Part shown: one piece after another, positions 54,216 through 60,034 of the stretch
Numbering within the stretch: position 1 is the first letter of the stretch
How the letters are laid out: every line of letters begins with the position of its first letter
Assembly: GCA_016223245.1 (NCBI GenBank)
Contig: JACRPL010000003.1
Span: forward strand, 1-64,000
DNA from: Candidatus Saganbacteria bacterium
GTDB taxonomy: Bacteria > Margulisbacteria > WOR-1 > XYC2-FULL-46-14 > XYC2-FULL-37-10
DNA: 64,000 nucleotides
Direction: 5' to 3'
Notes under the pieces: generated by a model
The model's database searches: none
What the model saw: only the letters and a program-made list of their open reading frames with translations
Told to the model about the DNA's origin: nothing
Position numbers and translations under genes: made by a program

Positions 54216-54647
54216 TTAGCCCTGTTTTTTTGTGAAAGAAAGGATCTCTTTTGAGAAAAATTCAAAATCGGCCAAATGGTCTTTTATATTTTGCAAAAGC
54301 AATTTATGGTCGATCTCCAAATAATCGTGTACGATCCTGTTCCTGAGCCCCGCTAATGGGGCGATCTTATTGGCAAAATCCTTGCTAATAACGCCTTTTT
54401 CGCCAAGTAATTTAATAATATCGTAGTAATCTTCCGGTTTCCCCAAACCGAGCGAAGCTATTATATGGTTTCCGACATCAAGCATCGCTTCGATCGAAAC
54501 TTCAAGGTTCCTTTCCGCGATATCGATATTATCCGAATTATTCTTAAACTCGTCAAAGACCATTTCTTTGAACCTGGCAAGCTTATTTGAGGCAGACCTT
54601 ATTTTTTGTATTCTGGTGTCTATAACATTTTCATCTAGTGGAGACAT
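54216..54647 (-). CDS. hepT: HepT-type HEPN toxin
   Basis: 143 aa, all helical. The catalytic RX4HXY motif is RNRIVHDY at 102-109 (Arg102, His107, Tyr109) after APLAGLRN, as in HepT RNases, in which the Tyr is AMPylated by MntA. It overlaps the mntA gene by 17 nt. The module lies between priA and def. DUF86 is the older name of this family. Confidence 0.85.
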   Translation of the reverse strand: MSPLDENVIDTRIQKIRSASNKLARFKEMVFDEFKNNSDNIDIAERNLEVSIEAMLDVGNHIIASLGLGKPEDYYDIIKLLGEKGVISKDFANKIAPLAGLRNRIVHDYLEIDHKLLLQNIKDHLADFEFFSKEILSFTKKQG

Positions 54648-55089
54648 AAAATCCCCCTTTCATTATGGCATTGTACTGGTATGCATGGAATTTATCCCTT
54701 AGATAAATCGTATCCAAAAAGTTCTTTTGGATAGATGCTTCAATATTGCTTTTGATCCCATTATTTGGGCAAAATAACAATTTCCCGTTCTTAATTGCCA
54801 TATAGCAGATATAAGGATTGGCTGTCTTTAGGTCAACCAGATCGAGATCATCCCGTTTTAGGACTTCAACAAATGATTTGTTAAGCGACAAAATATCTTT
54901 GCCAGTTAAATCGACTTTCGAATAGAAAGCGATATCAATATCGCTTAATCTGCTGGAGCATCCTTTAGCCGTTCCTCCAAAAAGATAAAGTAAGTCGATG
55001 CCGTGATCTTGGCAAATAGCCTGCATTTTCGGAATGATCTCTTCAAAATCGACCGGTTTGGGCTTGTTTATTAGTTTTATTTTCCTCAT
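54631..55089 (-). CDS. mntA: MntA-type nucleotidyltransferase antitoxin
   Basis: 152 aa. The MNT motif is LFGGTAKGCSSRLSDIDIAF: the usual GS is GG, the DxD is kept. The C-terminal half (ANPYICYMAIKNGKLLF) is typical of the MntA branch with HepT partners. By analogy it would transfer AMP to the HepT tyrosine. It has its own promoter. Confidence 0.8.
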   Translation of the reverse strand: MRKIKLINKPKPVDFEEIIPKMQAICQDHGIDLLYLFGGTAKGCSSRLSDIDIAFYSKVDLTGKDILSLNKSFVEVLKRDDLDLVDLKTANPYICYMAIKNGKLLFCPNNGIKSNIEASIQKNFLDTIYLRDKFHAYQYNAIMKGGFYVSTR

Positions 55090-55124: not shown

Positions 55125-55152
55125 GGTCATTTAAAGCAGGTCATTTAAAGCA
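55125..55152. repeat. 14-bp tandem duplication at the priA / mntA junction
   Basis: GGTCATTTAAAGCA occurs twice head to tail (55125-55138, 55139-55152). The priA stop codon lies in the second copy. It marks the boundary of the inserted toxin module. Confidence 0.8.
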
Positions 55153-57184
55153 GATTCATCGGTTCGATATCAATTGTTATCCTTATTTCATATGGCGCAA
55201 TGATCTTTGAAGTGGATTCCTTGATCGCATTACGCATTACTTCTAAATTTTTCCCTTTGAGTAATATCTGCCACCTATATTCACCGCGTATTTTAGCAAT
55301 AGATGCCGCAACGGGACCGAGTATCTGATAATATCCCAATTTCCCAGATCCCGGATCCCTGCTCTGTAAAAACCTTTTAAGATCATTAGAGACTTTTATA
55401 ACTTTCTGTTCGTCATGACCATGAATTATGATGTTTATCAGTTCAGAGAAAGGTGGATAGGATAAGCCTTCTCTGTTCTTTATTTCCTCATCATAAAATC
55501 CCTTATAATCCAGTTTTGATGCGAATTTGATCGCGTAATGATCAGGATTCCAAGTCTGAATAATTACTTTTCCAGGATTGTATCGACCAGAACGCCCTGC
55601 AACCTGAACTAACTGTTCAAATGTGTGTTCGGCGGCGCGGAAGTCGGGGACATTGAGCATCGAATCGGCAGAAACGACGCCAACTAGTGTTACCTTTGGA
55701 ATATCAATTCCTTTTGTGACAAGTTGCGTTCCGATCAAGACATTGGCGCCGCCTTCACTAAAGGCTGCAAATAATTCTTCGTGGGAACCTTTCTTTGTTA
55801 CCGAATCTCTATCTATCCTAACGATCTTTGCTTTGCAAAAAACTTCGCCAACTTCCTCTTCTATCCTTTGTGTACCAATGCCTAGAAAAGCGATCGATGA
55901 ATTCTGGCATTTTGGGCAAACTAGATTGATTCCCGATGTAAAACCGCAATGGCCGCATACAAGCTGGTTTGATTTATAATGATAGATAAGAGATACAGCG
56001 CAGGTGGGACATTGGATCGTAAATCCGCACTCGCGGCACATAGCGTATGTAAAAAAGCCTCGTCTATTCAGAAATAATATTACTTTTTCACCGCGTTCCA
56101 ATGTTTCTTTTATTTCTTTCTTCAGTGTTTGGGACAGCAATCCTTTTTTCTGCTCGCGCATATCGATTATTTCGATCAAAGGGAGCGGATTGGTATTTAT
56201 TTTTTCTATTAATTCCAATAGTTTATATTGTCCTGTTTGTGCTTTGAAATATGCTTCGATAGATGGGGTGGCGGATCCTAATACCGAAACGATTCCCGCG
56301 TTTTTAGACAAAAATTCGGCTATCGTTCGTGCGTGATACCTTGGATTTTGTTCGGATTTATAAGTTGTCTCGTATTCTTCATCAAGGATCAGGACTTTTA
56401 GATTTTTTACGGGTGCAAATATGGCGACACGAGTTCCTATTACAATTTTCGATGATCCATTAATGATCTTTTCCCATTCAAAATTTCTTTCTTTATCGGT
56501 TAGCCCGCTATGGATAATAGAAACCGAGTCATAGAATCTTTCTTTGAAACTTTTGACTAGTTGCGGCATTAAGCCGATTTCTGGAACAAGAACAATTGAC
56601 CCTTGGCCATTTTTAAAAGCCTCTTCAACTACTTTTAAATAGACTTCCGTTTTTCCGGTGCCTGTTGGGCCATGGAGCAGGAAGGTTTCACCTTTTTGTT
56701 TGCATAATGATTCTTTGATTGTATTTATTGCAAGTTGTTGGGATTGGGTGAGGGGGAGGATGCCCGTATTGTTTAGAGGTAATGATATTGGGTTTTTGGC
56801 CGAATTTTCTTCACCCAATAACAATCCCGGCTTCTTAACCCTCACCTTTTTTCCGACCTCTTTTTTCTTTACAGAAGGCGGAAGGATCGCCCTTAAAGCT
56901 GTTGTAAAAAAGCAGTTATAGTATTTTGAAATGAATTTTGCGAGCTTAAGGCCATTTTCTGTGAAAACAGGATTTTCTGATACTAGGCTTGTGATTATTT
57001 TTAGGTTCGGGAAATCGCTTTTTTCGGCAAAACCTACAACATATCCTATTCTATTAGAATTCCCAAATGGGACTTGGACTTGATGTCCGAGCTTTATTGT
57101 TGAACTCAAAGTTCCCGGAATTTCGTAGTGATATATTTTATCGAGCTTTGGGAGAGTTTTTGATAGGACTATTTCGGCTAACAT
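55145..57184 (-). CDS. priA: Primosomal protein N' (replication restart helicase)
   Basis: 679-aa superfamily 2 helicase restarting collapsed forks. Seen: Walker A HGPTGTGKTEVYLKV, motif II LDEEYETTY, GSATPSIEAYFK, the zinc-binding insert CRECGFTIQCPTCAVSL ... CGHCGF ... CPKCQ, LIGTQLVTKGIDIPKVTLVGV and QVAGRSGR. Between the DNA-binding domain and the helicase lies a repeat-encoded linker (SLPLNNTGILPLTQSQ, from 56743-56790) sharing an element with pabB. Its normal neighbour fmdB is reduced to a stub just upstream. Confidence 0.95.
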   Translation of the reverse strand: MLAEIVLSKTLPKLDKIYHYEIPGTLSSTIKLGHQVQVPFGNSNRIGYVVGFAEKSDFPNLKIITSLVSENPVFTENGLKLAKFISKYYNCFFTTALRAILPPSVKKKEVGKKVRVKKPGLLLGEENSAKNPISLPLNNTGILPLTQSQQLAINTIKESLCKQKGETFLLHGPTGTGKTEVYLKVVEEAFKNGQGSIVLVPEIGLMPQLVKSFKERFYDSVSIIHSGLTDKERNFEWEKIINGSSKIVIGTRVAIFAPVKNLKVLILDEEYETTYKSEQNPRYHARTIAEFLSKNAGIVSVLGSATPSIEAYFKAQTGQYKLLELIEKINTNPLPLIEIIDMREQKKGLLSQTLKKEIKETLERGEKVILFLNRRGFFTYAMCRECGFTIQCPTCAVSLIYHYKSNQLVCGHCGFTSGINLVCPKCQNSSIAFLGIGTQRIEEEVGEVFCKAKIVRIDRDSVTKKGSHEELFAAFSEGGANVLIGTQLVTKGIDIPKVTLVGVVSADSMLNVPDFRAAEHTFEQLVQVAGRSGRYNPGKVIIQTWNPDHYAIKFASKLDYKGFYDEEIKNREGLSYPPFSELINIIIHGHDEQKVIKVSNDLKRFLQSRDPGSGKLGYYQILGPVAASIAKIRGEYRWQILLKGKNLEVMRNAIKESTSKIIAPYEIRITIDIEPMNLL
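56743..56790. repeat. Dispersed in-frame element shared with pabB (priA copy)
   Basis: TTGGGTGAGGGGGAGGATGC continuing CCGTATTGTTTAGAGGTAATG. See the pabB copy at 28768-28815; same strand relative to the gene and same reading frame. Confidence 0.75.
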
Positions 57185-57203
57185 GGGTTAAGTATACCAG
57201 ATT

Positions 57204-57257
57204 AATGAGAACAGCTAGAACGGCTGCTTTATTGCACTTATAATCGTAGAAGGGCAT
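57204..57257 (-). pseudogene. fmdB remnant (copy C)
   Basis: Starts ATG at 57257 with MPFYDYKCNK exactly like the intact fmdB, then jumps to sequence matching the last 20 bases of fmdB (GTTCTAGCTGTTCTCATT against GTTCCAGCTGTTCGCATT). It is an internally deleted copy between hicA and priA. Confidence 0.7.
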
Positions 57258-57274
57258 TTATTTGTATTGTTTGC

Positions 57275-57523
57275 TCAGGAGAACAAAGAGTCGATTAATT
57301 GTGATTTTGTCATACCCAAATAGGAAGCGATATCGTTCAAGATGTTGTTCAGCGTCCCAAGTTTTATTTCCCCATGGTCAGGAATAGTGATTTTATGTTC
57401 TTGTGCTTTTATGGTTAAAATTATTCTGATGTGGCTTCCTGTTTCTCTGCTAACTTCATAGCCATACTTTTTTAGCAATTTAATCAAGCCTCTGCCTGAA
57501 AGATTCCGTGGTAATTTAGGCAT
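57275..57523 (-). CDS. hicA: HicA mRNA interferase toxin
   Basis: 82 aa; a double-stranded RNA-binding-like fold. LIKLLKKYGYEVSRETGSHIRI carries the catalytic His in GSH, followed by ITIPDHGEIKLGTLNNILNDI. HicA cuts mRNA during stress. It overlaps hicB by 8 nt. Here the antitoxin gene comes first (hicBA order). Confidence 0.9.
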   Translation of the reverse strand: MPKLPRNLSGRGLIKLLKKYGYEVSRETGSHIRIILTIKAQEHKITIPDHGEIKLGTLNNILNDIASYLGMTKSQLIDSLFS

Positions 57524-57734
57524 ACGCCAAAGTTTCTTCTTTTACAATATGGAGCCTGACTATCGATGGAATTAAGTCTTTCTTGTCAAAATGAGCCGAT
57601 AAAGCGTCATGAATATTAGTTTTCAATTCTTCAAGCGTTTCTCCCTGTGTGAAAATGGAATGGCCGAGCGCTTTCGCGGTAAGCCCGCCTTCAGGGTCAT
57701 CCTCAATTAAAAATACAATTTCAGGAACTATCAT
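57516..57734 (-). CDS. hicB: HicB antitoxin
   Basis: 72 aa: IVFLIEDDPEGGLTAKALGHSIFTQGETLEELKTNIHDAL is the partial RNase H-like fold of HicB proteins. The C-terminal DNA-binding helix domain of longer HicB is absent, so autoregulation may need another factor. AGGAGGAAAAG lies before the ATG. Confidence 0.88.
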   Translation of the reverse strand: MIVPEIVFLIEDDPEGGLTAKALGHSIFTQGETLEELKTNIHDALSAHFDKKDLIPSIVRLHIVKEETLAYA

Positions 57735-57798
57735 GATCTTTTCCTCCTATTATCTAATTTTATATTACTCTTTTCTGAATGACTATTCAAGCAGCCTT

Positions 57799-58026
57799 TC
57801 AATGCGAACAGCTGGAACATTCGCCTGAAGAGCACGAACCGCATCCACTTCTGTTTGAAGTCGATTGAGCTCCGCCCTCACTATTACTAACAGTCGGGTA
57901 ATAGACCCTTGAAATATCTTCAGCTCCGCAAAATTCGCATTTTATGCCGGATGGCTTAGCTCCCATTCCGTGGAGGACTTCAAATTTCTTTCCGCATTTA
58001 TTGCACTTATAATCGTAAAAGGGCAT
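57799..58026 (-). CDS. FmdB-family zinc ribbon protein (intact copy B)
   Basis: 75 aa. MPFYDYKCNKCGKKFEVLHG, then IKCEFCGAEDISRVYYPT: two CxxC pairs form a zinc ribbon. The tail is Gly/Ser/Cys-rich (SGCGSCSSGECSSCSH). The role of the family is unclear (regulator or small metal-binding protein). I start it at 58026; four upstream codons are not family-like. Its first 30 bases recur at 57229-57257 and in part at 58807-58830. Confidence 0.85.
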   Translation of the reverse strand: MPFYDYKCNKCGKKFEVLHGMGAKPSGIKCEFCGAEDISRVYYPTVSNSEGGAQSTSNRSGCGSCSSGECSSCSH

Positions 58027-58042
58027 GGTTAATGGCAATCGA

Positions 58043-58372
58043 TCAAATTATTTTCATTCCTTTCTCAAGGGCTTCGCTGACAATCCCAATTTCGTTCTTT
58101 TTTTCTTTGAATTCATCGGGAGTATAGCAAATTGCGTCGATGTGCCGGTGGAAATCGATAGTTTTCAAAAAGTCCCCCATTCTGTAAATGAATTTCCTTC
58201 CTAAAAATTTATTTGATACCAGGATCATATCAATGTCGCTGTTTGGCCTTGCTTTGCCGAGCGCCCTTGAGCCAAAAAACCAAAGCTCTTGAGGATTAAA
58301 TCCCCTTTTTATTGCAGCAAGATTTTGTTCTAGGAAGCTTTTTATTTCTTGGTCTTTTATTTCGCAGCTCAT
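58043..58372 (-). CDS. MNT nucleotidyltransferase of a HEPN/MNT pair
   Basis: 109 aa with FFGSRALGKARPNSDIDMIL (GS-x10-DxD) and a C-terminal segment FHRHIDAICYTPDEF. The gene follows its HEPN partner (overlap 4 nt), the reverse of the other two pairs. It sits 17 nt from fmdB. Confidence 0.85.
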   Translation of the reverse strand: MSCEIKDQEIKSFLEQNLAAIKRGFNPQELWFFGSRALGKARPNSDIDMILVSNKFLGRKFIYRMGDFLKTIDFHRHIDAICYTPDEFKEKKNEIGIVSEALEKGMKII

Positions 58373-58752
58373 ATTTGTATTTGGCTTTTAACCCAAGAAA
58401 GAATATCTTCGGCCGTCTTAATCTTGCCTTTTGCGTCGCTTTCTGAATATTCTTCAAAAGGAGCGGAAGCTGTAACATCGGGATATCTTGAAACCATATA
58501 ATCAGAAGAAAGCTCTTTTAATAAACTGAGGATTTGGCTAGGGACATTAAGATTTCTTCCGATTTCATCAAGATAATGTGTTCTTGGCGCTGGTTTGTTG
58601 TTTAATAATATGTAGAGGGCTTTAAGGTATTTTTCAACGGCCTGCTGGCAAAGAAATGCGCAAGTGTCGTAACCGCCATCATCAATGATATTTTTTGCCA
58701 TTTCAAGATCATGATCCCCCTGTTTTGTCCATTTTATGATTTCTTTTTTCAT
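58369..58752 (-). CDS. HEPN-domain protein
   Basis: 127 aa: WTKQGDHDLEMAKNIIDDGGYDTCAFLCQQAVEKYLKALYI is the standard HEPN core, followed by RTHYLDEIGRNL and YMVSRYPDVTASAPFEEYSE. This is the HEPN branch commonly paired with a following MNT gene. It lacks the RX4HXY motif seen in HepT at 54216-54647. The ATG is preceded by an A/T-rich leader. Confidence 0.8.
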   Translation of the reverse strand: MKKEIIKWTKQGDHDLEMAKNIIDDGGYDTCAFLCQQAVEKYLKALYILLNNKPAPRTHYLDEIGRNLNVPSQILSLLKELSSDYMVSRYPDVTASAPFEEYSESDAKGKIKTAEDILSWVKSQIQI

Positions 58753-58803
58753 GATTGAAATTATAGCCCATCGATCATGGTTAAATCAAGTTAAATGTGG
58801 AAC

Positions 58804-58830
58804 TCAGCATTTATAATCGTAGAAGGGCAT
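58804..58830 (-). pseudogene. fmdB 5' stub (copy A) overlapping the end of coaBC
   Basis: ATG at 58830 gives MPFYDYKC then TGA. The same bases in the other frame encode the last residues of CoaBC (LDALLRL, stop at 58811-58813). So coaBC and fmdB once overlapped here, and fmdB was cut after codon 8. Confidence 0.65.
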
Positions 58831-60034
58831 CTAATATCCTGTTAGCAGTTTCCGACTTCCGAAGCTTTGGTAGCTTTTTTGCTTTACCGTTCTTCGAAAT
58901 AATGGTTACTTTGGCCGAATCAGAATCAAAGGTCGTTTCATCGTTCGCGACGATCATATCCAAATCTTTTTCTTTGAGTTTCTTTTTTGCGTTTGTCAGC
59001 AAGTTGTCCGTTTCAAGCGCAAATCCTACTAGTATCTTTTTTGCTCTTCCTTTTTGCTGAGAAATTGTTTTAATAATGTCGTGATTCTTTATGAGTTTTA
59101 GATTTAGAGTTTTGGATTTTAGCTTTGTTTCGGATCCGTTCTCCGTAGCAGCGCTACTGCGAAGGATGAATTTCGAGTTTCGGATTTCGGATTTATAGTC
59201 CCCAACGGCCGCTGCCATTATAATAATATCCGCTTCAGAATAGTTTCCTAGAACAGCTGTGAGCATCTCATCGGCCGATTCGACTTTTATAGGTTTGATA
59301 TCGAGCGGAGAGGGTAGCGCGACATTTGCAGAAATCAAAGTGACTTCAGCTCCCCTGTCGCGTGCGGCTTCGGCGACAGCATATCCCATTTTTCCTGACG
59401 ATCTATTTGATATAAATCTTACAGGATCGATCGCTTCCCTTGTTCCGCCGGCAGTAACTAATATTTTTTCCCTTTTTAGATCTTGTTTCACTCCAATCAA
59501 TTCGATCGCTTTTTCAATTATCTGATTCGGTTCGGACATGCGGCCTATATCATGATCGCCGCAGGCAAGTTTTCCAACTTCTGGACCCACGAAGACGAAG
59601 CCGAGTTTCTTTAATTTTACCGTGTTTTCCGAAACAACCGGGTTTCTCCACATTTCGCAGTTCATGGCAGGCGCTATAAGCTTTTTGCATTTAGCTGACA
59701 TTGTAATTGTTGATATTGGATCGTCTGCTATGCCTCTTGCTACTTTTCCTATTATATTGGCGGTTGCTGGCGCAATTATTATAAGATCGGCTTTTTGTGA
59801 AAGAGAAATATGCGGAACTGGGATATTTTTTAGTTCTTTTGAGAATAGATATGTGATAACAGGGTTTCCCGATAATGTGCGAAAGGTTAGGGGAGATACA
59901 AATTCTTGGGCTGATTTGGTCATTACAACATATACGTTTGCGCCGAGATCTTTTAAGCGAGAAACAACTTCGCAAGTCTTGTAAGCGGCTATTCCACCTG
60001 ATACACCGACAATGATTGTTTTATTCTTTAACAT
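58811..60034 (-). CDS. coaBC: Phosphopantothenoylcysteine decarboxylase / phosphopantothenate-cysteine ligase
   Basis: 407-aa bifunctional coenzyme A enzyme. The CoaC flavoprotein half (1-180) has GVSGGIAAYKTCEVVSRLKDLG, the catalytic His in PVPHISLSQKADL, APAMNCEMW and GKLACGDHDIGRM. The CoaB half has TAGGTREAIDPVRFISNRSSGKMG and DMIVAND. After VGDYKSEIRNS comes about 25 residues (LRSSAATENGSETKLKSKT) from a dispersed repeat (59085-59205), an in-frame insert. The usual cluster order rpoZ-coaBC is kept. Confidence 0.94.
   Translation of the reverse strand: MLKNKTIIVGVSGGIAAYKTCEVVSRLKDLGANVYVVMTKSAQEFVSPLTFRTLSGNPVITYLFSKELKNIPVPHISLSQKADLIIIAPATANIIGKVARGIADDPISTITMSAKCKKLIAPAMNCEMWRNPVVSENTVKLKKLGFVFVGPEVGKLACGDHDIGRMSEPNQIIEKAIELIGVKQDLKREKILVTAGGTREAIDPVRFISNRSSGKMGYAVAEAARDRGAEVTLISANVALPSPLDIKPIKVESADEMLTAVLGNYSEADIIIMAAAVGDYKSEIRNSKFILRSSAATENGSETKLKSKTLNLKLIKNHDIIKTISQQKGRAKKILVGFALETDNLLTNAKKKLKEKDLDMIVANDETTFDSDSAKVTIISKNGKAKKLPKLRKSETANRILDALLRL

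Follow-up and report, generated by a model that had tools for sequence, protein, structure and literature searches.

Toxin-antitoxin (TA) modules in the genome of this Candidatus Saganbacteria organism (G000) are often surrounded by near direct repeats that are pieces of the neighboring gene, with the intact gene on one side and a broken copy of its end on the other. The copies differ mainly by silent changes, which suggests that TA pairs arrive by recombination with the DNA of relatives and not with a dedicated mobile element. The reading we prefer, to which our sequence comparisons lead us to give a probability of about 0.55, is that small DNA pieces from relatives, in which the module adjoined the corresponding gene end, were integrated by additive recombination. 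The locus from which the pattern was recognized is the interval between coaBC and priA in the window (the whole stretch of 64,000 nucleotides analyzed), where the coding strand reads coaBC, stub A, HEPN, MNT, intact fmdB, HicB, HicA, stub C and priA. This order had been proposed in a preliminary description of the sequence and is borne out by the ORF map and by Pfam matches for HEPN, NTP_transf_2, HicA and FmdB; TA assignment throughout is by homology. The features of the interval and its surroundings are the following:

58811..60034, minus strand: coaBC (ORF), which overlaps the resident fmdB, its final 20 nt doubling as the initial 20 nt of that gene
58807..58830, minus strand: stub A, the first 24 nt of fmdB (MPFYDYKC plus stop), overlapping the coaBC stop
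58369..58752, minus strand: HEPN, toxin candidate (PF05168, E 1.1e-23)
58043..58372, minus strand: MNT nucleotidyltransferase, antitoxin candidate (PF01909, NTP_transf_2, E 2.8e-9)
57799..58026, minus strand: intact fmdB, a zinc-ribbon protein of 75 aa (PF09723, Zn_ribbon_8, E 3.5e-14)
57516..57734, minus strand: HicB-like antitoxin candidate (ORF and position)
57275..57523, minus strand: HicA, toxin candidate (PF07927, E 4.1e-13)
57201..57257, minus strand: stub C, a copy of fmdB with its middle deleted, adjoining priA
55145..57184, minus strand: priA (ORF), the right border of the hotspot described below
54216..55089, minus strand: a second TA pair, MNT plus HepT-like, between priA and def (PF18765, PF01934)

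A search with the 20-mer TTATAATCGTARAAGGGCAT gives three matches in the window (57238-57257, 58007-58026 and 58811-58830; identities of 20/20, 20/20 and 19/20), where 0.01 are expected, so the earlier claim stands: the fmdB 5' end is present three times and encloses a HEPN-MNT and a HicBA module, with fmdB pieces on both sides of each; the positions first reported for the copies were right in essence, their starts being off by 2-3 bases. Stub A carries 24 nt of fmdB across the coaBC stop, the overlap with coaBC having been described before, and differs from the intact gene at two sites, both synonymous; stub C retains the first 30 nt and approximately the last 20 nt of fmdB and has an internal deletion. 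At the intact fmdB the first base of the direct repeat is exactly that of the ATG. The adjacent HEPN and MNT genes (PF05168, PF01909) form the arrangement that their TA class requires, and from these homologies the pair is a candidate toxin-antitoxin system, with toxicity and its neutralization by nucleotide transfer both putative. The HicB ORF gave no match in the Pfam search and owes its name to its position. Around the MNT/HepT-like pair at 54216-55089 no bracketing repeat was detected (repeat score 11), and the ORFs of the coaBC-priA interval include no integrase.

The same interval was compared among 31 genomes of the Saganbacteria/WOR-1 class (one genome per species, mostly drafts, with G000 the sole member of its genus among them). 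priA orthologues are present in 29 of the 31, coaBC and priA are adjacent or almost so in many class members, and nine genomes have fmdB between the two. One of these, G024, has coaBC-fmdB-priA without any insert, and the coaBC/fmdB overlap recurs in G003 and G008, in agreement with the ancestral order previously suggested; in G024, about 2.4 kb likewise separates priA from def. In line with part of what had been anticipated for relatives, the contents of the interval vary, and other TA or accessory genes occupy it. Between fmdB and priA, G006 carries HEPN-MNT and AbiEi/AbiEii, G013 a Schlafen AlbA_2 protein, G022 an NTP_transf_8 pair, G028 DUF5678 and a partial aspartyl protease, G008 serS and a serine dehydratase-like gene (gene names by eye), and G003 and G021 unknown ORFs. 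In three genomes that lack fmdB, the interval holds DUF4143-type ATPases (G015 and G023, by eye) or a RelE-like pair (G017). This variety identifies coaBC-priA as a hotspot of accessory genes that is rich in TA modules. In G028, an insert is flanked by two whole fmdB genes that are 90% identical, and the 72 bp before the second of them match the coaBC tail of G022, unlike the coaBC tail of G028 itself; in G017, a 5' piece of priA is fused to a 3' piece of coaBC within the interval. As separate observations, the fmdB start of G006 (L112, near 6062) is lost, and the gene, which looks degenerate, overlaps the end of coaBC in a different frame; in G008 (C5:90230-92148), a stop or frameshift splits priA, possibly an assembly error.

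The pattern extends well beyond fmdB. We screened the whole 1.65 Mb genome of G000 (minus 299 bases of one contig) with an ungapped search for near direct repeats, and many of these surround TA modules and are pieces of the neighboring gene. Pieces of ilvD flank MNT-HEPN (the fragment covers about 400 bp of ilvD), those of secD an AbiEii-like gene, those of polA HEPN-MNT, those of mdh a DUF4143 ATPase, fhs-like ones a nucleotidyltransferase pair and those of glyQ RelE-like pairs, while three copies of queC enclose a PIN toxin pair together with two unknown ORFs. The repeats measure 20 to 201 bp without gaps and vary in length between loci. At a score of at least 20, bracketing was found at 15 of 75 TA-like clusters, a proportion biased by cluster-list seeds drawn in part from bracketed loci, versus 0.35% of 4000 random intervals; among the 11 PF05168 HEPN loci of G000, which were found independently, four are bracketed (fmdB, ilvD, polA and a gene for a secreted protein). 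The cargo comprises HEPN-MNT, HicBA, AbiEii-like, PIN and other genes and does not fit a restriction-modification (R-M) system; the 404 aa ORF at mtnA and the two ORFs at queC are non-TA inserts, so the process also concerns genes other than TA modules. By eye, no conserved module ends and no common terminal inverted repeats were seen, and no transposase or recombinase gene is among the ORFs of the small inserts. Details at individual loci include a duplicated mtnA piece around the 404 aa ORF, which has no Pfam match (C3:114163-116353); a partial DprA-like stretch (C6:123528-123722) beside an MNT/HI0074-like TA pair (C6:123741-124413), 44 kb from the full dprA and possibly a gene fragment carried with the module; and a 37 bp promoter-to-start-codon stretch that precedes both an antitoxin/RelE pair and HicBA (C21:16516-17094).

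HEPN loci in other genomes provided an independent test. In the rest of the class, 14 of the 64 testable PF05168 loci (22%) are bracketed, versus 1.35% of random positions and, with mismatched flanks, 5 of 3770 (0.13%) when the flanks came from different genomes and 2 of 262 when they shared a genome. Approximately 10 of the 14 have readable ends, named by eye as mutS, ilvB, tkt, guaA, murE, asd, aspS, dapF, an unnamed gene and a tRNA. The ilvB case comes from a single-contig genome (G011), in which the HEPN gene takes its first codons from ilvB, and homology between this module and a related one (L274) stops at the last base preceding the ilvB ATG. The HEPN of the window is most similar, at 63-67% identity, to HEPNs that adjoin tkt, ilvB and dapF in other families (f2, f7 and f9), and DNA similarity among these related modules is limited to the two genes; considered together with repeats derived from the local gene, this indicates that one module lineage entered a different gene in each family. 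Bracketing was also found at 10 of 29 HEPN loci in a small sample from other classes of the phylum, an uncurated count in which some cases (L348 and L350) resemble TA paralogues or intergenic repeats; one HEPN locus there (L363, in G053) is bracketed by a 425 bp repeat of 90% identity. The pattern is weaker in our small Chloroflexota sample (the class of G081), where 2 of 23 HEPN loci show it, in one case with a terminator-like repeat.

The differences between the repeat copies bear on how they arose. Comparing the fragment with the intact copy, 55 of 68 codon differences (81%) are synonymous and 13 are nonsynonymous, and 54 of 72 differences fall on the third codon position. If one copy had been a useless fragment from the start, decay after insertion would scatter the differences over the codon positions; in simulations of such decay the synonymous share averaged 24% when only the fragment changed and 38% when silent change in the intact gene was added, with a maximum of 55% in 1000 runs. 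Because 81% exceeds the simulated values, both copies probably diverged while functional, like alleles of different strains. The boundaries are also informative: in co-oriented 5' cases the repeat begins exactly at the ATG in fmdB (twice), ilvD, mutS and ilvB and no more than 12 nt from it in polA, tkt and glyQ, while in two anti-oriented cases it reaches 11 and 45 nt upstream. Repeat starts at or near the ATG fit a donor in which the module stood directly before the gene.

Under additive recombination, the donor would be a small piece of a relative's DNA consisting of a TA module and the same gene end, and it would enter through homology limited to this gene end, by circularizing and then undergoing a single crossover or by one-sided homology combined with an illegitimate joint. 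One flank of the insert would then be the intact gene and the opposite flank a piece of the other allele, a fragment that would later decay; TA addiction may hinder loss of the module through recombination between the repeats. The homologous gene is indeed partly duplicated beside the insert, as one-sided recombination predicts. The synonymous bias and the foreign coaBC tail in G028 give indirect support to a donor and resident allele origin of the copies, and the priA-coaBC joint in G017 is as expected from ligation of a circularized coaBC-module-priA piece. ComEC is encoded in 28 of the 31 class genomes and DprA in G000, which suggests that DNA uptake is possible, short of proof of competence. 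In E. coli, DNA with one-ended homology was integrated mostly by single crossover of circularized molecules, and 56 of 60 clones had part of lacZ duplicated, over 109-950 bp in the sequenced clones (PMC3240628). Some considerations weigh against additive recombination: several repeats span just 20-45 bp, little for homologous recombination to act on; synonymous differences could also come from a true target duplication if the intact gene was afterwards exchanged with other strains; and the model does not explain the first arrival of a module beside the gene in the donor.

A different origin of the repeats would be insertion with long target duplication, in which a module copies 20-400 bp of its target on insertion and only the insertions after which one gene copy is still intact survive. 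Minimal inserts with long, variable direct repeats on both sides and without terminal repeats are what it predicts, R-M systems have been described to insert in this manner (PMC3874152, PMC3031569), and the target at the fmdB locus is uninterrupted in G024. We nevertheless consider it unlikely, although it deserves to be kept in view, because the 81% of synonymous codon differences would require that the intact genes exchanged alleles afterwards, and because most co-oriented 5' cases have a repeat that begins at the ATG and the coaBC tail in G028 is foreign. A true target duplication followed by such allele exchange is possible.

The preliminary description had offered recombination at the fmdB start as an alternative to target duplication, and a site-specific recombinase that stacks cassettes there, using the start as its attachment site, would account for the same 20 bp at the module borders in three copies. 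We give this next to no credence. The fmdB core and the 30-mer have no occurrence in the rest of the 1.65 Mb genome, so the suggested search for the core beside other accessory genes came back empty and an attachment site at the core is disfavored; the sequences around other modules are unrelated to it, which makes the "core" simply the end of the gene that happened to be affected; and the interval, as noted, encodes no integrase. Moreover, because coaBC and fmdB overlap, parting these genes with both intact needs the 20 bp twice. It is also very improbable that the pattern reflects chance, in the form of ordinary paralogues, dispersed repeats or assembly errors: a few of the cases lie between genes or look repeat-like (L301, L319) and most genomes are draft assemblies, but the controls give just 0.1-1.4%, the copies have diverged, unlike assembly errors, and the ilvB case sits in a single-contig genome.

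The preliminary description held that no described mechanism has this signature, which was too strong given the R-M reports and the E. coli single-crossover work already cited. Insertion of R-M systems with long, variable target duplication (Nobusato et al. 2000, as cited in PMC3874152 and PMC3031569) shares with our loci an addiction-type module, the lack of mobility genes and long variable direct repeats of the target, whereas here the cargo is TA, the copies differ mainly synonymously and the host belongs to Margulisbacteria. Our literature search found no long target duplications at TA modules beyond the R-M reports and reviews citing them, subscription papers lying outside its range. Single-crossover integration and homology-facilitated illegitimate recombination (PMC3240628) likewise involve one-sided homology and an insert beside a duplicated gene segment, but those were laboratory events with selected markers and ours are inferred from old, decayed loci. 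MNT-HEPN genes have been surveyed as mobile two-gene modules, their mobility being deduced from distribution (PMC2701414); the same gene families are patchy and mobile here, and insertion scars are added to that picture. A row of small TA cassettes between repeats also resembles integron cassettes, without their common site or integrase. Among viral contigs encoding FmdB relatives, only distant matches were obtained.

TA modules are extremely mobile. To our knowledge, the chromosomal entry of pairs that lack mobility genes is rarely visible. In the genomes studied here, a scar is retained at about a fifth of HEPN-MNT loci, and it indicates which gene end was involved, possibly a foreign allele, and the rough age of the event, so that the entry route of a TA module becomes testable by strain comparison. 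As a tentative generalization, to which we give somewhat less than even odds, near-bare TA pairs without mobility genes may spread in Margulisbacteria by additive recombination anchored at gene ends, sometimes taking over the start or expression of the adjacent housekeeping gene, as with the ilvB codons of the HEPN gene in G011, and this may be a main route by which TA genes move in lineages of this kind.
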